DNA of 59,676 nucleotides from Spirochaetota bacterium (GTDB lineage: Bacteria > Spirochaetota > UBA12135 > COTS27 > JAFLEE01), in assembly GCA_017302015.1 (NCBI GenBank), contig JAFLEE010000025.1:1-59676 (forward strand), read 5' to 3'. Numbering within the stretch: position 1 is the stretch's first letter; every line of letters starts with the position of its first letter. Made by a program: the position numbers and the translations under genes. The notes under the pieces were generated by a model. The model searched no databases. It saw nothing but the letters and a program-made list of their open reading frames with translations, and was not told the DNA's origin. This document shows positions 4,391-14,504 of this stretch, piece by piece.

Positions 4391-4676
4391 GCTCACCTTC
4401 CTTTATCGCGGGGAACACCAGTGCGCCCCGGGTGTACCGGCCATTCTATTATCTTCCCGACTGCCAGGGGATTGCACGAGAAAGCCGGATTTTCCTGCAC
4501 TTTTCACGCAAAGTGGCGAGCCTACACCCCAGAGGCCCCGTTAACTCGACAATCCCAGCATCGACCACCCCCGACCACACCTGATCAAAATTGTTGGTTA
4601 CACCGCGCCCCCGCGTGGACATCAACCCCATGACGGCAAACCCGAACCCGCTTACGGGATGGGGAAGGAGCGTCAT

Positions 4677-6566
4677 GTGGGTCGTATTCCAGCCAAACCC
4701 AAGGATAAGCAGAGGGCCACGCCCGAGACCGAGGCGGTGGAGGTCGACGACTTTTTCAACCTCCCGGGTGTAGGTCTCGAAAGCCCGGCAGCCACCGTGG
4801 TCCCGGGAGATCGGGAGATACGCCCCGAACCCGGGCCATTATTGGACCCTGCGCCACTGGGGGACGTCGAGAACGAGGAGGCGGTCATTGATGAGCCATC
4901 GCCGTTGGCCATAGGAGATACCGGCCTCCAGGTAGCCACCTCCGCGCCCGTGAATGACGCGGCGCCCACACCGGCCTACCAGGTCCTTTCGCTCTCCGAG
5001 CACGAGTTGGAGATCCAGGTGGGCGACCGCGTATGGCACGCCACGGGTTTCAACATAAAACGCCTCGGCGTTTACGGCCTCACCCTGAAAGTCTGGGGCG
5101 TCACCCACGAGGGGGAGAGGAACTTCTTTGTCGGCGACGTGAACCTTGCGCGAAGCCGTAGCCGTAGCGAGTTCGTGCGCAACCTCACCGGCTACCTGGT
5201 GTTCCCCGAGGAGGTCATCCGCCGCGACCTCCACGTGTTGGTGACCGCCCTGGAGGCCCTCACCAGGGAGAACCTAAGGAAGCAGACGGCAGAGAAGCAG
5301 GTGCACGTGAAGACCTTCGAGGCCACGGGTGACGAACTGGCGGCGGCCGAGACCTACCTGCGGGAGCACGACCTCCTCACGGGCGCCCTCTACGACGACC
5401 TGGAGAAACTGGGGTTCGTCACCCAGCCGGGGACCAGGTGGGGGGCCCTGGTGCTTTACCTCGTTGCCACCAGTCGCAAACTGAGCCGCCCGCTGTCAGT
5501 GCTCTCCCTCGGCCTGGCCAGCAGCGGGAAGTCGATGGGGCAGGAAATCATGCAGGGCCTTCTGCCGGACGACGAGTTCTACTCTTTCACCCGCCTGACC
5601 CCAAAATCCCTCAGCCACTTCGGCCCCCACGACCTGACGAACAAAGCGCTGTTCCTCGATGAGTTCACCGCCCGCGGGGACGACGGGAGCATGAGCCAAC
5701 TAAAGAGCCTGCTGTCCCGAGGCTTCCTTACAACGTCCCTCGCGAGTTTGAACCGTGTGACTGGCGTGGTGGAGACCGTGAGCAAGGACGTGCATGGTCC
5801 CGTGAGTTTCTTCTCCGCCATCACGCACGAGCGGGGACTGGATGACGAACTGCGTAGCCGCTTCCTCATCCTTCCCGTGGACGAGTCAAGCGAACAAACG
5901 CGGCGCGTGATGGAGAAGATGCTGGAACGAGATACCGAGGACGGGCTGCGCCAGGAGGGGGAGCGCCGCGAAATCAGGCGCAAGTACCGGCTCATCCAAA
6001 AGGTTCTCCAGTCCGTGAAGGTCATCATCCCCGAGGCGTGGCGGGAGAAAATCAAGTTCAACAGCCAGCGCATCACCTACCGCCGCAAGTTCCAGATGTA
6101 TCTGTCCTTGGTGTGCGTCATCACCCTGCACCGCCAATTCCAGCGCCGGGTCTCCCGCCTGCCCGACCCCTCCACGGGCGGCGAAACCACGTTCATCACG
6201 GCCGAGGCGGAAGACATCCGGCTGGCCAACCAAATCATGGAAAACCTGTTCGCGGTCGCCACCGACGAACTGAACCCTGTGAACCGCCGGGTCTACGAGC
6301 AAATCAAGGTCTTCTGCCAGGCAGAGGCGTCGGCCAAGGGGCTGCCCGAGACCGAGGTGTCTTTTACGAGGCGGGAGATTCGATACGCCGCCCAATTGGA
6401 TGAGACGCCTACGCGCCGGGCCTTCGAGCAACTCCTGCAACTTGAATACGTGGAGAAGGTCCGCGGCGGGGACCAGGGGAGCCGCCACTTCTACCGCCTC
6501 TCCCATTCGACGGACGGACACGAGAGCGACGGCCTCCACCTGTGGACGCCCGGGGAGGGAACATGA
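4677..6566 (+). CDS. Mobile-element replication ATPase (CHC2-primase-associated helicase family)
   Basis: A 629-residue P-loop ATPase. The Walker A motif GLASSGKS is at residues 279-286 and Walker B ALFLDEF at about 324-330. Later segments GPVSFFSAIT, LRSRFLILPVDESSEQT and a C-terminal winged-helix-like part (FTRREIRYAAQLDETPTRRA) match a family common in integrative elements, where it often carries a CHC2 zinc finger. No zinc finger is seen here; the N-terminal 120 residues are acidic and low complexity. It probably unwinds or initiates replication of the excised element. GTG at 4677 has AAGGAG six bases upstream and was preferred to ATG 4659. Confidence 0.7.
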   Translation: MGRIPAKPKDKQRATPETEAVEVDDFFNLPGVGLESPAATVVPGDREIRPEPGPLLDPAPLGDVENEEAVIDEPSPLAIGDTGLQVATSAPVNDAAPTPAYQVLSLSEHELEIQVGDRVWHATGFNIKRLGVYGLTLKVWGVTHEGERNFFVGDVNLARSRSRSEFVRNLTGYLVFPEEVIRRDLHVLVTALEALTRENLRKQTAEKQVHVKTFEATGDELAAAETYLREHDLLTGALYDDLEKLGFVTQPGTRWGALVLYLVATSRKLSRPLSVLSLGLASSGKSMGQEIMQGLLPDDEFYSFTRLTPKSLSHFGPHDLTNKALFLDEFTARGDDGSMSQLKSLLSRGFLTTSLASLNRVTGVVETVSKDVHGPVSFFSAITHERGLDDELRSRFLILPVDESSEQTRRVMEKMLERDTEDGLRQEGERREIRRKYRLIQKVLQSVKVIIPEAWREKIKFNSQRITYRRKFQMYLSLVCVITLHRQFQRRVSRLPDPSTGGETTFITAEAEDIRLANQIMENLFAVATDELNPVNRRVYEQIKVFCQAEASAKGLPETEVSFTRREIRYAAQLDETPTRRAFEQLLQLEYVEKVRGGDQGSRHFYRLSHSTDGHESDGLHLWTPGEGT

Positions 6567-6958
6567 CCACTGTTCGCAAGAGCACCACCCTGCCTATCAA
6601 AACTCGTGCCGAAAACCTGGTCACGGGCTGGAACTTGGTCAAAACCTGGTCCGCCGCGGGTGACCAACTTTTTCAATCTCAAAGCGTGAAAACTCTCGGT
6701 CTTTTTGGGCTCTGGGGAATCCTGGTCATGTTGGTCGCCCATTTTCTCAAATGGGGACGCGCACTGGCGGCTTGTGAATTGTTGATCGAGCCTTGGGTGG
6801 CGGCGTTGCCAACCTGGTCACGGGCGATGAACCCGGTCAGAACCTCGCCAGCCACGTGTGACCAGGTTTATGCGTCAGGAGTGCCCAAAACTGGGGGTCT
6901 CCACGGGGGTTTGAACAACCCGGTCACTTGGTCAGCGTTTGCCGGGGGTGTGCAGTGA
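6563..6958 (+). CDS. Small repeat-bearing protein overlapping a DNA repeat array
   Basis: A 131-residue frame that starts in an ATGA overlap with the ATPase and ends in a GTGA overlap with the next gene, so it looks translated. Its sequence is dominated by motifs such as NLVTGW, NLVKTWS, LPTWSR, NPVRTS and NPVTWS, which are simply the translation of the AACCTGGTCAC repeats in the DNA. One hydrophobic stretch (about residues 48-62) could span a membrane. The DNA repeats may be what matters, with the frame kept open for translational coupling. Confidence 0.45.
   Translation: MTTVRKSTTLPIKTRAENLVTGWNLVKTWSAAGDQLFQSQSVKTLGLFGLWGILVMLVAHFLKWGRALAACELLIEPWVAALPTWSRAMNPVRTSPATCDQVYASGVPKTGGLHGGLNNPVTWSAFAGGVQ
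6614..6935. repeat. Iteron-like array, about 11 copies of AACC(T/C)GGTCAC
   Basis: Copies occur at 6614-6624, 6632-6642, 6643-6652, 6660-6670 (inverted), 6719-6729, 6729-6739, 6811-6821, 6830-6840, 6858-6868 (inverted, exact), 6917-6927 and 6926-6935. The 15-mer AACCTGGTCACGGGC occurs twice exactly. Further single copies lie at 2090-2100 and 7558-7568. Such clustering beside a replication ATPase suggests an origin of replication or initiator binding sites. Confidence 0.6.
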
Positions 6959-7584
6959 ACTCCACAAATGCCATGCAACCGATCGCCGACGCCTGCCGGG
7001 CCTACCTGCGGTCGCTGCGTCGCCAGGGCCGGACTCCCCACACCCAGGTTGCCCACAGGCGCATCCTGGACGCCCTACAAGCCTTCCTCGACGGGCGGAA
7101 TGTGCTGGATGTCTCTGCTATCCGTGGACGGCTCCTTGCGGCGTTTGGCAAGCGCCTGACGCCCGGGGGTGCCGGGCGGCAGATGGGGATCGTCCGGGCC
7201 TTCCTGGCCTACGCCCACCTGCGCGATCCGCGGGGCAGGCGGGAAGCCACCCCCACCCCTGTGGATGACCCGGGTTTCCCCGTGGGGGCCGTCACCGGCG
7301 GTCACTTCCTGTGGGTGCCCGCCAGGGGCCAAGACAAGCCGTCGCTTAAACCCTTAGGGGGCACGAGGTCCCCCATGAGTGACAACAGACAACTGCTCCC
7401 CCTGCAAGAGATTCACAAGACGCGCATCCGCATGCCGTACAGCCAACTGCTTCGCCTCGCCCGCCTGGGCCGGCTGCCGGTGCGCAAGTTCGGCAAGGCC
7501 TACTATGGGGACCCCCAGGAGGTCGTGGCCGCCCTGCTGCCCCCAGCCCAGGAAGTGGTGACCAGGCCGGGGAGGAAGCCGTGA
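6955..7584 (+). CDS. Recombinase core-binding domain fused to an excisionase-like HTH
   Basis: This 209-residue protein has two parts. Residues about 7-90 resemble the SAM-like core-binding domain of tyrosine recombinases (AYLRSLRRQGRTPHTQVAHR), but no catalytic domain follows. After a 50-residue linker, residues about 150-200 look like an excisionase/MerR-like winged helix (MPYSQLLRLARLGRLPVRKF). The GTG start overlaps the previous stop as GTGA. An internal ATG at 7375 with GAGG at 7365-7368 could give a separate 69-residue Xis-like protein. It probably directs excision with the recombinase that follows. Confidence 0.6.
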   Translation: MNSTNAMQPIADACRAYLRSLRRQGRTPHTQVAHRRILDALQAFLDGRNVLDVSAIRGRLLAAFGKRLTPGGAGRQMGIVRAFLAYAHLRDPRGRREATPTPVDDPGFPVGAVTGGHFLWVPARGQDKPSLKPLGGTRSPMSDNRQLLPLQEIHKTRIRMPYSQLLRLARLGRLPVRKFGKAYYGDPQEVVAALLPPAQEVVTRPGRKP

Positions 7585-8663
7585 GCGTCCGCCAAATCGG
7601 CAAAGCCCCCGATGGCCTCTACGTCTTCGCCCTCTACACCCGATTTGAGGGCGAGACGCACCGCAAGCGTGTCAACACCACCAAGACGGCCATCGACGGC
7701 ATCTACCGCGAATGGATTGACCGCATCCAGTCGCACGCTACGGCCAAGAGTCTCACGCTCCACGAGGTCATCGACCGCCACCTGGTGTGGTGCGCCGAAC
7801 ACCGGCCGCCCCACCACACGGACCACATGCGCAGGTATCTCGCGTGGCTCAAGGCCTACTTCAACAAGGAGGTCCCCATCGACCGCCTCAAGCGCAGCAA
7901 GATGCTCGACTTCGTGGAGTGGAAGCGCAAGCGGCCGGACGCTCACGGGGGAGGCAAGGGCAAGGCCCAACTGAGCGACGGTACGCTACTGCGCTGCGTG
8001 GGCGCCCTCAACGGCTTCTTCAACTGGGCGCTGGACAATGAACTGTTCAGGGGCGTGAACCCCTGCCATCGGCTCAAACTAAAGGACCGCGGCAAGGGCA
8101 AACGCCAGGTCTTCCTCACCACGGACGAGATGCGGGAGATTCTGGAGGCCGCCCACCTGCCGCACCACCGAACCCTGTTGCTGGTGCTCATGACGACCGG
8201 CATGCGGCGGGGCGAGGCGCTGAAACTGCGTTGGGAGCACGTGAACCTCGAAAGCCGGGTCATCGACCTGCCGGCGGGCATCACCAAGGCCGGCCGTAGC
8301 CGCACCATCCCCATCCCGGTCGTGCTGGCCGAACACCTGGCGGGCTTGAGGCGGGAATGCGAGTTCGTTGTCCACCAGCACGGCCAACAGTTGTCGTGGG
8401 TTAAAACCTTTTGGCGGGGGCTCAAAAAGCGGCTGAAGTTCGAGAAGGCGCGGAACCTCACGCTCCACGGCCTACGTCACAACTACACGTCATGGTTGGC
8501 CAAGAGCGGGGCCGACCCCTACGCCATCAGGGACTGGCTGGGGCATCGGGACCTGCGGATGACCCAGCACTACGACCACTACCGGACGGGGAGCCAGGGG
8601 AGTGAGAAACTGGAGGTGTTTACCAAGATGCTGGAGGGGAAGGAGAAGGCGCAGGGGGAGTGA
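7581..8663 (+). CDS. Tyrosine recombinase / integrase
   Basis: A complete 360-residue phage-type integrase. Its N-terminal part should bind arm or core sites, and the C-terminal domain carries the active site: Arg209 in TTGMRRGEAL, His296 and Arg299 in HGLRH, His322 in WLGHRD and Tyr331 in QHYDHY. The GTG start overlaps the stop of the core-binding/excisionase gene, so the two are translationally coupled. As the last gene of the replication-excision block it is the likely integrase of this element, and the element end may lie shortly after it. Confidence 0.9.
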   Translation: MSVRQIGKAPDGLYVFALYTRFEGETHRKRVNTTKTAIDGIYREWIDRIQSHATAKSLTLHEVIDRHLVWCAEHRPPHHTDHMRRYLAWLKAYFNKEVPIDRLKRSKMLDFVEWKRKRPDAHGGGKGKAQLSDGTLLRCVGALNGFFNWALDNELFRGVNPCHRLKLKDRGKGKRQVFLTTDEMREILEAAHLPHHRTLLLVLMTTGMRRGEALKLRWEHVNLESRVIDLPAGITKAGRSRTIPIPVVLAEHLAGLRRECEFVVHQHGQQLSWVKTFWRGLKKRLKFEKARNLTLHGLRHNYTSWLAKSGADPYAIRDWLGHRDLRMTQHYDHYRTGSQGSEKLEVFTKMLEGKEKAQGE

Positions 8664-9596: not shown

Positions 9597-10583
9597 TTAT
9601 GCGTAAAATACTTTAATGTTCCATTTCGGAGGGTACCATTGCGGAATCGGTGTTGAGTGCGGCGTGAACTTCTGCTTGATCCGGGTGCGCCCAAATACTC
9701 CCTCGACCTCGGGATGCGCGACGCGCGAGTACTTGCTGACTTCGCAGAACACGTTCTGACAGTCGATAAGTTGCAGGCTCCGGCCCCAGAGGTTCTTGAA
9801 CTTCATCCCCAGCCGACTGAACTCGCCATCCGCGCGCTCGGCCATGACCCGGATAATCTCGGCCTCGGTCAAGCCGGCGGTGTCCTTGAAGCACTTGCGA
9901 ATGCCGTCGCGTGCTCCAGGACCGGCTACGACGAACTCCATCTCCGAGAAGTCGGTCAACTCGCTGTAGTTTAGGTCGATTGCGAACTGGTACGCAAGGA
10001 AGTCCCCCAGCGACCGATAGCTTCGAAGCAATTCGAATACCGCCCGCAGCGTGGTCGCCTTCATGAGCTTCCTTGGCGCGTCATCAGCCATCATGTACTC
10101 GATGAGCCGCAGGTGATTCCGGTGCTTCCGCGGGCTCCCGAAGGCCGGCGAAGGCATGATGTACGCGGCAGAGTAAATTCGCTGTCCATGGTCGAGCAGA
10201 CGATCAAGAATCGTCGCGTAGGCGTCGAAGTCGAAGTCTCGCCAGCACGCTGCTCCGACCGCTCTGCGCAGGGCCTCCCACGTCTCGATCTTGTTGAAAA
10301 GCTTGAACAGGATCGTGCGAAAAAAGACATCCTCTGGTTTCTGTGAGCCTTCGTAGATAACGTGGCGGATCAGGTATTGGCTCACCCGGTCTGATGCTCG
10401 GTACGTGTTCGTGAAGCGGTGCGATCGGAGGATCGGGTCCTCGGTCCACGGCGGAATGTTTCCGATCAGCCGGCGCATGAACATCTCCTGGCGCTCCGAG
10501 GCAAAGCGCCAGTACGTGTCGAACACGGACGTCGTCCTGAGTATGCGCCCACCTTGCACCCGAATCTCGTGGGATGTTGGCAT
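9597..10583 (-). CDS. 5-hmdU DNA kinase helical-domain / DNA base hypermodification-like protein
   Basis: A 328-residue protein with signatures I associate with the 'nucleotide kinase / DNA base hypermodification' family (Pfam HMUDK_hel): FDTYWRFASERQ at residues 21-32, PPWTEDPIL at 44-52, RFTNTYRASDRVSQYLI at 56-72, then FKLFNKIETWE, KHRNHLRLIEYMM, VVAGPGARDGIRKCF and LQLIDCQNVFCE. Relatives act on 5-hydroxymethyl-dUMP in phage thymidine hypermodification or as glutamyl/putrescinyl-thymine pyrophosphorylases. No P-loop is present, so kinase activity is not shown. Start at 10583, two bases after the TIR-like gene; it is the last intact gene of the operon. Confidence 0.8.
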   Translation of the reverse strand: MPTSHEIRVQGGRILRTTSVFDTYWRFASERQEMFMRRLIGNIPPWTEDPILRSHRFTNTYRASDRVSQYLIRHVIYEGSQKPEDVFFRTILFKLFNKIETWEALRRAVGAACWRDFDFDAYATILDRLLDHGQRIYSAAYIMPSPAFGSPRKHRNHLRLIEYMMADDAPRKLMKATTLRAVFELLRSYRSLGDFLAYQFAIDLNYSELTDFSEMEFVVAGPGARDGIRKCFKDTAGLTEAEIIRVMAERADGEFSRLGMKFKNLWGRSLQLIDCQNVFCEVSKYSRVAHPEVEGVFGRTRIKQKFTPHSTPIPQWYPPKWNIKVFYA

Positions 10584-10585
10584 GC

Positions 10586-11131
10586 TCAGTCGGTCCACTC
10601 GCTGCCTGTACGGTTTTTGCCGAATGATGCGCGAGAGTTGTCGGGCTGTTTCGTGCTCTTCCGAAGGTAGGCTTGGTGAATCCAGTCTTGGACCGTGGTG
10701 GCGTCCTCCGACCAGTTGTAGATGGCCGCAAACCCACATTGGATATTATCGAAAAGGCGTGGCGGGATCGTCTTCGGGTTGTACTTGGACTTGTCGGTTC
10801 GGGGGTATGCAGGCAGCAGGATGCCGAGGAGCCCCGAGCGAGGATTTGTCTTTGTGTCTCTGATCGACGAGCCGATTTCCCAGTCGACGTGCTTCCGTTG
10901 CCAGGTTTCAGCGCCGATCAGGACGACGGTCACCGAAGTGTCACGAAGGTACTCGTCTCGAATCTTCTGCCGGATGGTTTCGGTTGACAGCGTGGGATCG
11001 ATGTCGCCTACTTTCACCGAACCCGGAACGATGGCTCCAAAACTATTCCCGAAGCGCAGCTCGAAGATGTTCTTGTAGGACTCGTCCAGCGCATGGTGGT
11101 AGCTGACGAAGACCTTGTGTCTGTTGCTCAT
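10586..11131 (-). CDS. TIR-like protein (MTH538/ThsB-type), copy 1
   Basis: A 181-residue protein with a TIR-like flavodoxin fold of the DUF1863/MTH538 class, to which Thoeris ThsB belongs. Visible marks are the first strand KVFVSYHHALDE (about residues 5-16), the second-strand block VTVVLIGAETWQRKHVDWEI with the expected catalytic Glu in DWEI, and GLLGILLP after it. Family members sense phage and make NAD-derived signals or cleave NAD. The start overlaps the thymidylate-synthase-like stop as ATGA, with AAAGGAA upstream. The C-terminal 30 residues are basic and probably disordered. Confidence 0.85.
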   Translation of the reverse strand: MSNRHKVFVSYHHALDESYKNIFELRFGNSFGAIVPGSVKVGDIDPTLSTETIRQKIRDEYLRDTSVTVVLIGAETWQRKHVDWEIGSSIRDTKTNPRSGLLGILLPAYPRTDKSKYNPKTIPPRLFDNIQCGFAAIYNWSEDATTVQDWIHQAYLRKSTKQPDNSRASFGKNRTGSEWTD

Positions 11132-12174
11132 GTGATTCCTTTCGGCGAAGAAATCACTCCAGTCCTGGCTGGAACGCCATGCACTCGTTCAAGCCACGAA
11201 GACCAAACCTGAACAAGCTGCGGATTCGTGCAATCAGCCATGAGCGCTTGGGCCTGATCCAAGCGAGCACGCCGTCGAGCCGACTCGCTGGCAAGCACAC
11301 GCAGAAGGTTCCGATAACCGACCGGTGCATCGTCCATCGCGGCGATTTCGGAGACCTGCGTCTCGCTGAGTTCTGGCGCTGTAAGCATGGCCATCCGCCG
11401 GAACATCTCGCTAATGAGTCGGTCGCTTTGGTCGAAAGGAGATGCGAGTGAATCGGTGTTCCTCTCCTCGACAACCGGAGCGCCGCAGGAGAACTCATTC
11501 AGGGAATCCTCGTATGCGTGGAGGCTGTCACACCATTGGTGGTACCCGCCGATTTCGAGGCCCAACCATCCAGCAATTACCTCCTGCAACAGGGTGAACT
11601 GCACAAAGTTATTCGGCAGGCCCCGAAAGAGGTCGTTGCTCCGAAGCACCTGTGTCCACTCAAGGCGCCTACCGCGAACCTTCAGCATCGACATAACGTT
11701 ACACGGCACATCCGGAGTACGGGGTGCCCCGTCGGCCTCCGGGAGGTCGGTAAGGACATCCCAAAACTGGAGGACCACCTGCCGGCTCTTTGTGTCAGAG
11801 GACAGCGCTGCGCACGCTCGCTTGACCTGGTCGACACCGAAGTGTTTCCGCAAACGATGGCCGTAAGCTCCCGGATAGGTTGACCCTTGGCCCGCGAACT
11901 TCGGTAGGCCCGAAAACCAGAAATTCATGACATCGGCGTCGTTACTCCCGGCGAGAATCCAAAGTGCATCGGCAATCGCGAAGGCCGGGTTGACGCTGGG
12001 CCGCCGGGAGATAACCCAGCGCTGACGAGGATCGTCGACCTCGAGGCCAACGTGCAGAAGCTCCAGCGTCTCTCCAGCACGACTGGCTTGCTTCGCGTGT
12101 GGCGCGGTCTCCATTACTGCGGCATGGGCTTGACGCCAGACTCCATCAGCGGTCCGTGCGCGGAAGATCTCCAT
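11128..12174 (-). CDS. Thymidylate synthase-like dUMP (hydroxy)methyltransferase
   Basis: A 348-residue member of the ThyA superfamily, which adds a one-carbon unit to C5 of a pyrimidine nucleotide. The nucleophile is Cys158 in DVPCN; Arg178, Ser179, Asp181, His219 and Tyr221 align with E. coli R166, S167, D169, H207 and Y209 at identical spacing. Asn189 matches N177, which favours uracil over cytosine. Two differences stand out: Asp69 replaces the general base Glu58, and the Trp80 region is not kept. A product such as 5-hydroxymethyl-dUMP is therefore possible (inference). The start at 12174 follows the Nmad2 stop by 16 bases; the longer open frame was rejected. Confidence 0.85.
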   Translation of the reverse strand: MEIFRARTADGVWRQAHAAVMETAPHAKQASRAGETLELLHVGLEVDDPRQRWVISRRPSVNPAFAIADALWILAGSNDADVMNFWFSGLPKFAGQGSTYPGAYGHRLRKHFGVDQVKRACAALSSDTKSRQVVLQFWDVLTDLPEADGAPRTPDVPCNVMSMLKVRGRRLEWTQVLRSNDLFRGLPNNFVQFTLLQEVIAGWLGLEIGGYHQWCDSLHAYEDSLNEFSCGAPVVEERNTDSLASPFDQSDRLISEMFRRMAMLTAPELSETQVSEIAAMDDAPVGYRNLLRVLASESARRRARLDQAQALMADCTNPQLVQVWSSWLERVHGVPARTGVISSPKGIT

Positions 12175-12190
12175 GGCTACTGTCGCTCCC

Positions 12191-12838
12191 TCATGCGTTC
12201 GCACCACGGCGGCCTGGCTGTTGGCGAACGTGCCGCGCGAACTCCAGAGGATCGTCCTGGAAGCCCCACTTCCCCTGCTGCTCAAGCCAGCACGCGAATG
12301 CGGTAGCAAGCTCCTCTCCGAAAATGCGGTAGCCTCGCGCCTTGCAGCAGATATCCTCGTGTGTCTTGCGGAAGGATCGAAAACGCTTCGGGATCACCGG
12401 CGCGGTCTTCCCCCAGTAGACGAATTTCGTAGATACGAGCACGCGATCGGCCCCGGTGTCCCACGCGATGTTGGCCTTGTTAGGACGGCCGTTCTCCAAG
12501 CTGTGGTGCGAATCTGCCTGGACCCACTTCTTGCAGACGCGGTGGTAAATGTTGTCGCCGTAGATGACCTTAAGGCTGCCTTTCAGGTTGGGACGCTTTC
12601 GTAGGAATCGTGGATCGTTCCAGTAGTTGTCGAAGTCGAGAACCTCGCACACTTGCATCGCATATATAAGTCGACCATTGAAGTCGTAACCCGACTTCGC
12701 ACCCGTTCCGACGATCCAATCGCCAACACTCGCACCGGCGCGAATCTTCGGCTTGCATGTCGCCAAGGTACAGAACCCGAAGAACGGGTTCGGGGCGAAA
12801 CCAAAGTCACGCGCGACGATGTATGAGTAGAGCCTCAT
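12191..12838 (-). CDS. Nucleotide modification associated domain 2 (Nmad2)-like protein
   Basis: A 215-residue protein beginning MRLYSYIVARDFGFAPNPFF, followed by GFCTLATCKPKIR and GDWIVGTGAKSG. I recognise this pattern from the Nmad2 family, predicted by comparative genomics to work in modified-nucleotide pathways; its biochemistry is unknown. The alternation of beta strands and the conserved Asp, Arg and His residues (e.g. DNIYHRVCKKWVQADSHHS) suggest an enzyme or nucleotide-binding domain. Its start overlaps the upstream TIR-like stop as ATGA. It lies between a TIR-like and a ThyA-like gene, which ties it to base modification. Confidence 0.8.
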   Translation of the reverse strand: MRLYSYIVARDFGFAPNPFFGFCTLATCKPKIRAGASVGDWIVGTGAKSGYDFNGRLIYAMQVCEVLDFDNYWNDPRFLRKRPNLKGSLKVIYGDNIYHRVCKKWVQADSHHSLENGRPNKANIAWDTGADRVLVSTKFVYWGKTAPVIPKRFRSFRKTHEDICCKARGYRIFGEELATAFACWLEQQGKWGFQDDPLEFARHVRQQPGRRGANA

Positions 12839-13332
12839 CCGCAGCTAAACCTCTTGGCCACCCAATCCGGCGTTGTGCGCGGGTTCCCGGTGGCTGGGTC
12901 GTCCCAACCGGTGATCTTGCCGTTAATCGCATCGACGACGCGATCCCCTTGCCAACCGACAACCGCGGCGTCGCCATGCTTTCGTAACTCCTCGGGAATG
13001 TCTGCATCCGTCGCGCTCTGCGCGAATACACCTATGACATTCTTACCTTGTTCGATGGCGTACTTGATTTCCCAGTTCACCCAGTCGCTTTGCGCGGTGT
13101 CGTGTGTGATAAGGACGACCAAAGTGCTTGCCCAGTCGATGCGCGGCCGAAGGTAGGTATCCTTTATGTAGTCGGGATTCGTTGCCTCATTCGGTTTGTC
13201 ACTATTTATGGAGCCGTCTCGGACCTCCATGCCCGCACCTTTGATTAGGTCCTTCAGTTTGGGAAGAAGTTCGTCGTCCTCATGTACATGGGAAATGAAG
13301 ATGTTCTTCTGCTCGGGCATGGCATTCTTCAC
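12835..13332 (-). CDS. TIR-like protein, copy 2
   Basis: A 165-residue TIR-like protein clearly different from copy 1. The first strand is KNIFISHVHEDDELLPKL (about residues 9-26), a Ser-His loop follows, and the catalytic-type segment is TLVVLITHDTAQSDWVNWEI with Glu in NWEI, then GKNVIGVFAQ. The C-terminal part after residue 130 is not typical of TIR domains. A GTG start at 13332 overlaps the membrane-protein stop; ATG 13320 is an alternative four codons in. As part of the operon it may be a sensor or an NAD-consuming effector. Confidence 0.83.
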   Translation of the reverse strand: MKNAMPEQKNIFISHVHEDDELLPKLKDLIKGAGMEVRDGSINSDKPNEATNPDYIKDTYLRPRIDWASTLVVLITHDTAQSDWVNWEIKYAIEQGKNVIGVFAQSATDADIPEELRKHGDAAVVGWQGDRVVDAINGKITGWDDPATGNPRTTPDWVAKRFSCG

Positions 13333-13973
13333 TTTATTTCGTGGCCATGGGCGATCTGCCGAAGAACTTCAGCGTAATCGACCAATTGCTTGTTGACTTC
13401 TATCAAGCTCTCTACGAGTTCCTGGTATCGCGGATATGAGCGTTGAATCTCTTGAGGGCTCTTATCCACGCTCTTTTTGAGTGCCTCCTCATACCAGTGC
13501 CTGAAATTCGCCTGCCACTGTGTTAGGTGCGGGCGAAGGCCCTCATTGAGGGCACTTACGAGCAGCCGCACCAACTCCTGCGTGTCTTTGCTTCTGCGCA
13601 CTTTCTCCGCAGGGATTGTTCTTGCAAGATTCCGCATCTCCTGGAATAGGGCGTACCAGGAATTGTAAATCTCGCTGATCACGTCATATTCCTTGTCGAA
13701 AGGTAAAGCGGCCTTCCGCGTCACAAGCTCGACCCATGCTCTGTGGGCCACCTGGATATCTTCGAAACTCGGGCGAATTTTTACTTTCCCGATGCCCCCA
13801 AGTTGAACATCGGCCTCAACGACAGACCACTCTGGCAGTTTCCGACCTCGATACCGGCAGAGTGCCCAAGTAGCAACACCAAGGACCATTATCGCAAGGA
13901 ACAACACTCCGACCTCGACTGAAAGACCGCAGTAGTCAGTAATTTTGATCGTGATGAGGTCCCGCCAATTCAT
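13329..13973 (-). CDS. Single-TM protein with helical cytoplasmic domain, first gene of the TIR operon
   Basis: A 214-residue protein with one strong membrane span (about residues 20-42, VEVGVLFLAIMVLGVATWAL) followed by a basic stretch, so the remaining 170 residues should be cytoplasmic. That part is mainly helical and charged (EIYNSWYALFQEMRNLART, QWQANFRHWYEEALKKS). No family is recognised. GAGGAG lies just upstream of the ATG. In TIR-containing defence loci such proteins are often membrane effectors or anchors; that role is inferred from position only. Confidence 0.7.
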   Translation of the reverse strand: MNWRDLITIKITDYCGLSVEVGVLFLAIMVLGVATWALCRYRGRKLPEWSVVEADVQLGGIGKVKIRPSFEDIQVAHRAWVELVTRKAALPFDKEYDVISEIYNSWYALFQEMRNLARTIPAEKVRRSKDTQELVRLLVSALNEGLRPHLTQWQANFRHWYEEALKKSVDKSPQEIQRSYPRYQELVESLIEVNKQLVDYAEVLRQIAHGHEIK

Positions 13974-14038: not shown

Positions 14039-14400
14039 GAAACGCTTGACCGGGTACCTACAAGTGGGTTACCGATTCGACCCGACGGGCGATACCAAGG
14101 TTGACCGCTTTCTACATTCCTCTAGCGGAAAACGCGGTATTAAAAGTGAGGTTAATCTAAAATACCGAGCCCTACCGAAAACTAAAGAGGGTCACTAAAT
14201 TTCGCGAAAACTGCTTTTGAAACTCTCAGAAAACACCGGTTTTTACAGTGCGAAATGGCTTTGCAACGGAAAAGCCGTTGAAAACCCGTTTAGGTAACCG
14301 AAAACGACCCCTACCCTAAACATCCCCGATTTTTGAGAAAAGATTGCAATATTCTTGCAACGGCGAATCCCACCATCTTGCCCATGATTATCCAATAAGC
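14039..14400. other. AT-rich spacer between the island operon and tRNA-Val
   Basis: No gene is supported. The stretch is much richer in A and T than its flanks. It holds a hairpin CAACGG-aaaag-CCGTTG near 14,263-14,279 and two nearby TTGCAA copies around 14,344-14,360. It may contain the island's junction with the chromosome, but no repeat of the tRNA end was found in the window. Confidence 0.4.
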
Positions 14401-14428
14401 AAAAACCCCGGTATTTACCGGGGTTTTT
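14401..14428 (-). terminator. Intrinsic terminator of tRNA-Val
   Basis: AAAAACCCCGGT and its complement ACCGGGGTTTTT flank a four-base loop, giving a GC stem with an A/T extension four bases past the tRNA 3' end. It would stop tRNA transcription on the minus strand and, being symmetric, also transcription from the left. Confidence 0.85.
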
Positions 14429-14431
14429 CAT

Positions 14432-14504
14432 TGGGCGCTACAGGGCTCGAACCTGTGACCCCTACCGTGTGAAGGTAATGCTCTACCAACTGAGCTAAGC
14501 GCCC
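14432..14504 (-). tRNA. tRNA-Val (anticodon CAC)
   Basis: Read on the minus strand, a 73-base cloverleaf forms: acceptor GGGCGCT paired with AGCGCCC, D arm GCTC/GAGC, anticodon stem TTACC/GGTAG with loop TTCACAC (anticodon CAC, decoding GUG), and T arm with GTTCGAGC. The discriminator base is A and CCA is not encoded. It marks the edge between the accessory region (left) and conserved chromosome (right). Confidence 0.93.

Follow-up and report, generated by a model that had tools for sequence, protein, structure and literature searches.

The stretch of DNA analysed here (the window) covers positions 1 to 59,676 of contig JAFLEE010000025.1 from the Spirochaetota bacterium assembly GCA_017302015.1, and it carries a six-gene operon on the minus strand at positions 13973-9597 in which two TIR genes are packed together with genes for nucleotide enzymes. 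In our study, this operon is proposed, with a probability of about 0.4, to be a horizontally spread, Thoeris-like antiviral system in which a modified pyrimidine would be made, read by the Nmad2 protein and turned by the TIR proteins into an NAD-derived signal. The genes, all six of which are intact in the open reading frame (ORF) calls, are the following.

13329..13973, minus strand: transmembrane (TM) protein, 214 amino acids, from the ORF call
12835..13320, minus strand: TIR2, ThsB-like, 161 amino acids; ATG at 13320, 8-base gap after the TM gene
12191..12838, minus strand: Nmad2, 215 amino acids; 4-base ATGA overlap with TIR2
11128..12174, minus strand: thymidylate synthase (TS)-like enzyme, 348 amino acids; ATG at 12174, 16-base gap after Nmad2
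10586..11131, minus strand: TIR1, the second ThsB-like TIR, 181 amino acids; ATGA overlap with the TS-like gene
9597..10583, minus strand: HMUDK_hel protein, 328 amino acids; ATG at 10583, 2-base gap after TIR1

An earlier note on this DNA had described six tightly packed minus-strand genes, one for a one-TM protein and the others of the TIR, Nmad2, thymidylate-synthase-like and HMUDK_hel families, and had named as refuting findings a lack of recurrence in other genomes and matches to unrelated families, neither of which was observed. The packing, with its small gaps and ATGA overlaps, was found as described, the family labels are confirmed by Pfam profiles, and the ordered set is present at 12 other loci, a recurrence which shows that the operon is not a chance arrangement. 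These loci come from an Nmad2 scan of about 85,000 species genomes, which gave at least 524 relatives, the best 80 of the 524 being taken for loci. In the 12 closest ones (L014-L025, Nmad2 identity 61-82%) the gene order is TIR-SLOG, TIR2, Nmad2, a variable gene X, TIR1 and HMUDK_hel, and the shared genes are mostly 60-86% identical to those of this operon; no TIR1 was detected in L019 or L024, and in L025 TIR1 and HMUDK_hel are inverted. The records are named under seven phyla (Chloroflexota, Pseudomonadota, Bacteroidota, Actinomycetota, Myxococcota, Planctomycetota and Nitrospirota), most of them being metagenome bins in which single taxonomic labels are possibly wrong, and L022 is a Myxococcus isolate. 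The high identity over such phylogenetic distances suggests that the operon has spread horizontally. Within the bacterium's own genome, HMUDK_hel and the two ThsB-type TIRs are found nowhere else, and no HMUDK_hel was found in 59 kin genomes, which made the kin uninformative for a comparison. Promoter and terminator scans of the operon gave nothing above chance.

Of the 12 loci, L014 has a TS gene in the X slot and the remaining 11 have MazG_C. In the Nmad2 tree, L014 is the sister of this operon with a support of 96; both lie in a clade of 11 rows, the other members of which are MazG_C carriers, and by this placement the present lineage has a TS at the position where its relatives have MazG_C.

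In the wider family, the ORF calls show a TIR gene immediately upstream of Nmad2 at 75 of the 91 loci, and tblastn places TIR2 upstream of Nmad2 also in L014 and L020, which brings the total to at least 77 of 91; some of the remaining Nmad2 loci without an upstream TIR sit at contig ends. What stays constant in the family is the pair of TIR and Nmad2. Around it are found variable modules, namely TS, MazG_C, HMUDK_hel, a protein of the uracil-DNA glycosylase (UDG) family, dCTP-deaminase-like (DCD-like) proteins (in 16 loci), TM/helical proteins, TIR-SLOG in fused or split form, patatin and radical SAM. The earlier note had treated the six genes as one system; their recurrence as a set supports this, but only TIR and Nmad2 are constant, and TS, HMUDK_hel and TM are exchangeable. 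The suggestion of the note that the nucleotide enzymes act together with TIR signalling is supported, as an association, by strong and repeated co-occurrence. Nmad2, HMUDK_hel and MazG_C, so far unexplained domains, are thereby linked with TIR immunity, where they are exchangeable components of one widespread system. A separate observation comes from the Mesorhizobium plasmid MesoLj131a2 (L106), where two TIR-plus-hypothetical pairs lie back to back, one with a uracil-DNA glycosylase and MazG and the other with patatin.

The co-occurrence of the modules was counted, irrespective of relatedness, in the 49 loci flanked on either side by more than 5 kb of sequence. In none of them (0/49) did HMUDK_hel occur together with the UDG-like protein, the two being present alone in 23 and 16 loci, respectively (Fisher p 1.7e-6), and UDG was always accompanied by MazG_C (16/16). 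TS and MazG_C avoid each other, with 2 loci having both (p 2.7e-3), and HMUDK_hel is associated with TS (p 3.4e-3). On the best tree, which has low branch support, at least 13 changes fall in the HMUDK/UDG slot and at least 11 in the TS/MazG slot. The slot exclusivity is a strong pattern rather than proof. As each slot has a natural swap, the role of the modified-base enzymes in defence becomes directly testable.

Domains of the same kind are known from defence systems. According to the main text of DefensePredictor (Science 2026, PMC13092281), E. coli systems with TS, 5hmdUk, dNMPk and NMAD domains stop phages, MazG, MazG-C, UDG and NMAD occur in further predicted systems, and Burroughs et al. 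2015 is cited as predicting several such domains in defence. These nucleotide-enzyme domains are the same as those found here, and TIR is unmentioned in that main text, to which the comparison is limited. By this analogy a phage-defence role of the operon is likely, because TS, 5hmdUk and NMAD domains have been validated in the E. coli systems. No description of the TIR-Nmad2 pair was found in the literature searched, which did not include the text of Burroughs et al. 2015.

Both TIR proteins, members of an NAD-cleaving family, belong to the ThsB type. TIR2 matches ThsB_TIR (PF08937, E 8e-21) and the PADLOC ThsB profile PDLC00418 (E 1e-52), and TIR1 matches PF08937 with an E of 1.2e-16. Glu84 of TIR2 and Glu85 of TIR1 are conserved and align with the catalytic Glu of the ThsB structures, of which 9b7d and 6lhy can be aligned with TIR2, Glu included. 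No SIR2-SLOG or macro-TM ThsA domain was found among the six operon proteins with Pfam and NCBIfam, and the SLOG domain LD_cluster2 was not detected elsewhere in the own genome by a search that had no positive control. A simple Thoeris system was rejected, the operon having no ThsA. The likeness to Thoeris lies in the ThsB-type TIRs with the catalytic Glu, in the SLOG-bearing effector of the sister loci and in the TM protein in its place here. The operon differs, however, in having neither a SIR2-SLOG nor a macro-domain ThsA, in an effector that is TM-helical without a macro domain here and TIR-SLOG in the relatives, and in the additional second TIR, Nmad2, TS and HMUDK_hel.

The TM protein has a single hydrophobic segment from about residue 21 followed by a helical domain, and it gave no Pfam match above the cut-off and no NCBIfam or PHROGs family. 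Its homologues are present at 23 other Nmad2 loci, seven of them with the N-terminal TM segment and the others without it, and in four the helical domain is fused to a patatin-like phospholipase (the fusion in L042 was checked by Pfam). The TM gene occupies the slot held by TIR-SLOG in L014-L025 and most likely stands in for the TIR-SLOG effector; it is a predicted effector module, and TIR-SLOG, TM and patatin-helical proteins appear to replace one another in the effector slot. A shared domain, which may act as sensor or adaptor, together with a membrane-acting part would fit an effector. At L070:6282-8411, TIR and SLOG LD_cluster2 are adjacent genes, i.e. a split TIR-SLOG, beside a TIR-Nmad2-MazG_C-UDG set.

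The TS-like enzyme matches Thymidylat_synt (PF00303, E 1e-16). Its closest solved chains are those of the CMP 5-hydroxymethylase MilA (5b6d and 5jnh, E 4e-25), and the best match to a thymidylate synthase structure has an E of 1e-8. It retains the catalytic Cys (C158) as well as R131, R178/S179, N189, H219 and Y221. Arg and Ser stand at the positions of MilA Lys133 and Ala176, and Asn, the uracil-type residue at this site, stands where MilA carries Asp. In MilA, the A176S/K133R substitutions switch the preference from CMP to dCMP (PMC5175136). From its residues, which favour dUMP, the enzyme is predicted to be a dUMP 5-hydroxymethylase. A housekeeping ThyA in salvage was rejected, since the NCBIfam ThyA equivalog cut-offs were not reached (63.5 vs 174.55 bits and 51 vs 327) and MilA is closer. 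At another locus (L042:9824-11977), a 717-amino-acid protein encoded beside TIR-Nmad2 has a metallophosphatase domain and, after it, a weak match to thymidylate synthase.

In mildiomycin synthesis, the N-glycosidase MilB releases the base as the next step (PMC4081090). The present operon resembles MilA/MilB in having a predicted TS-family hydroxymethylase and then a putative N-glycosidase for its product, whereas dUMP is predicted here instead of CMP, the glycosylase is of another fold and the context is immune. MazG converts nucleoside triphosphates (NTPs) to nucleoside monophosphates (NMPs) (PMC10014863) and TS uses an NMP; thus TS and MazG_C alike could supply an NMP to the glycosylase slot. 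The same hydrolysis and the co-occurring DCD-like genes would also suit a starvation of deoxynucleotides (dNTPs), in which MazG, DCD, glycosylase and TS drain the pyrimidine nucleotides and the TIRs are a parallel killer. This explanation is highly improbable, as TS yields a thymidylate-like product from dUMP and depletes no dNTP by itself, and Nmad2 and the swappable effectors would be left unexplained.

The operon is also comparable to phage thymine hypermodification (5-hmdU kinase, aGPT-PPlase) through its TS-type dUMP enzyme and its HMUDK_hel/aGPT-PPlase-like protein, but it is cellular, is coupled to TIRs and has no P-loop kinase in HMUDK_hel. TS and HMUDK_hel are by family members of these phage pathways, and phage homologues were found, which could point to a restriction-modification logic with host DNA self-marked by a modified thymine and TIR killing upon entry of unmarked DNA. 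Such a role appears quite improbable, for the operon encodes neither a nuclease nor any kinase, polymerase or transferase with which DNA could be marked, and the MazG_C which replaces TS in the sister systems would lower the modified dNTP pool.

The HMUDK_hel protein matches PF18723 with an E of 1.7e-116 (Pfam), and its AlphaFold2 model has a pLDDT of 92.7 and a pTM of 0.90; the alignments for this model and for that of Nmad2 comprised this operon plus genome or viral-contig loci only, plasmid-record rows being excluded. The best structural match by VIA is the queuosine salvage enzyme QNG1/DUF2419, the next ones are AGOG, OGG, AlkA-like proteins, EndoIII and MutY, and 21 glycosylase rows precede the first unrelated row (Z 3.5). 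DUF2419 frees queuine from queuosine (PMC9406330), and it has also been solved with queuosine-5'-monophosphate. D274 is invariant in HMUDK_hel and, from its position after the hairpin, may be the catalytic Asp. The alternative occupant of the slot, the UDG-like protein of the sister systems, matches PF03167 above the cut-off and retains the HPS and N-x-x-P type motifs. As two unrelated N-glycosylase folds share one slot, the comparison suggests that the slot holds an N-glycosylase with base release or exchange as its job.

The kinase implied by the label 'HMUDK' was not borne out and was rejected, because the P-loop GxxxxGK[ST] is absent from the HMUDK_hel of this operon (motif scan) and the fold is N-glycosylase-like. 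A P-loop is present in 3 of the 48 HMUDK_hel homologues, within an added thymidylate-kinase domain (fusions at L066:2869-4584, L076:13029-14723 and L083:3489-5201). These fusions, a tmk gene adjoining HMUDK_hel on an archaeal plasmid and the DCD-like genes in 16 loci would be expected if the messenger were a modified dNTP, similar to that of Kongming; TS, or MazG together with DCD, would make a modified dNMP, which a phage or host kinase would convert to the dNTP that directly activates the TIR NADase. In Kongming, dITP, a base-modified nucleotide, is made with phage kinases and triggers NAD+ depletion (PMC12948488). The likeness to Kongming (KomABC), a base-modified nucleotide coupled to NAD+ destruction, is only inferred here, and none of the KomA deaminase, KomB HAM1-like and KomC SIR2-like domains was found among the six operon proteins (Pfam). 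We consider a dNTP messenger rather unlikely, since the operon has no kinase, and the N-glycosylase slot and the NTP-destroying MazG would have no explanation.

A second HMUDK_hel gene set was seen on plasmid records of bacteria and one haloarchaeon (L002, L003, L005, L007, L008 and L013). It includes a small acyl-carrier-like protein, a helix-turn-helix protein, an ImmA/IrrE peptidase, TS or a C1 peptidase, a MazG-type NTPase and a holo-ACP synthase, and it looks like a second, separate system.

Nmad2 matches PF18753 (E 1e-67, Pfam), and its AlphaFold2 model (pLDDT 87.6, pTM 0.85) gives weak though consistent matches to ASCH, EVE, YTH, THYN1 and VcaM4I in Foldseek and VIA. These types are PUA-like domains, several of which read modified bases. 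From the model, Nmad2 is predicted to recognise a modified base or nucleotide as a PUA-like reader of the YTH/EVE/ASCH kind. As the ATGA overlap couples the translation of TIR2 and Nmad2, it is a natural guess that Nmad2 is the gate of TIR2. The resemblance to the THYN1 and VcaM4I readers, the DNA-glycosylase-like folds with UDG as a partner and the phage defence conferred by prokaryotic DNA glycosylases (PMC11078745) may also speak for a sensing of hypermodified phage DNA. Modified bases would then be cut out of that DNA by HMUDK_hel or UDG, Nmad2 would recognise either the DNA or the excised base, and killing of the cell would fall to the TIRs. DNA sensing is nevertheless unlikely, as no clear task would remain for TS and MazG, and it predicts an occasional co-occurrence of UDG and HMUDK, of which none was seen.

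In the proposed mechanism of modified-pyrimidine signalling, the TS-like enzyme would convert dUMP to a 5-substituted dUMP, most likely 5-hydroxymethyl-dUMP. HMUDK_hel would then act on the glycosidic bond of this nucleotide, or on the same base in phage DNA, and release or exchange the base, comparable to MilB after MilA and to DUF2419 in queuine salvage. Nmad2 would bind the modified base or nucleotide and gate its partner TIR2, and the TIRs would convert NAD+ to an ADP-ribose-type signal, possibly carrying the modified base as histidine is carried in type II Thoeris. This signal may open the TM protein (TIR-SLOG or patatin lipase in the sisters), and the infected cell would be killed or arrested. 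Known TIR products include gcADPR and, in type II Thoeris, His-ADPR (PMC12948488). A more specific version, in which the NMP comes from TS or MazG, the base is freed by HMUDK_hel or UDG and joined to ADP-ribose by the TIRs, and SLOG, TM or lipase detects the product, is distinctly unlikely. If it is true that the modified base feeds the TIR signal, a new immune messenger would be added to those known.

Several findings weigh against modified-pyrimidine signalling. When relatedness is considered, the slot exclusivity comes down to 3-4 independent pairs on the starred branches, too few for significance. The Z of 10.5 with which HMUDK_hel matches QNG1/DUF2419 (VIA) is within the chance range of helical proteins, its Foldseek match is weak (E 0.35), and the fold matches of Nmad2 are weak as well (Foldseek E 0.03 or worse, VIA Z at most 7.5); sequence-profile searches of the PDB gave no meaningful relative for either protein. 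Moreover, the phage relatives of HMUDK_hel are associated with changes of the 5-substituent of DNA thymine, which is not base release.

The mobile, tRNA-linked site described in the earlier note was also recovered. Its features are as follows.

7581..8663, plus strand: tyrosine integrase of a mobile element (PF00589, E 2.7e-26)
14432-14504: tRNA-Val
14386..14475, minus strand: 3' half of the tRNA-Val with the terminator; probably the attachment site, repeated on contig C13

The operon lies between the integrase and the tRNA-Val and has a guanine-plus-cytosine (GC) content of 57% vs 66% in the flank past the tRNA. Contig C13, on which no intact tRNA was found, carries a copy (about 87 bp) of the tRNA-Val 3' half with the terminator, and this repeat supports the 3' end of tRNA-Val as the probable attachment site. 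No att copy was found inside the 59,676-nucleotide window. Because the neighbours of the C13 copy are mostly of host-like GC, this copy could be a relic rather than the second end of the element. Just before the tRNA-Val fragment, C13 has a low-GC stretch (46-48%, L108:15398-17100) with two small genes. On the plus strand of the window, the region 4659-8663 encodes a 635-amino-acid protein without a Pfam match and the tyrosine integrase, which are probably the replication/integration genes of the mobile element.

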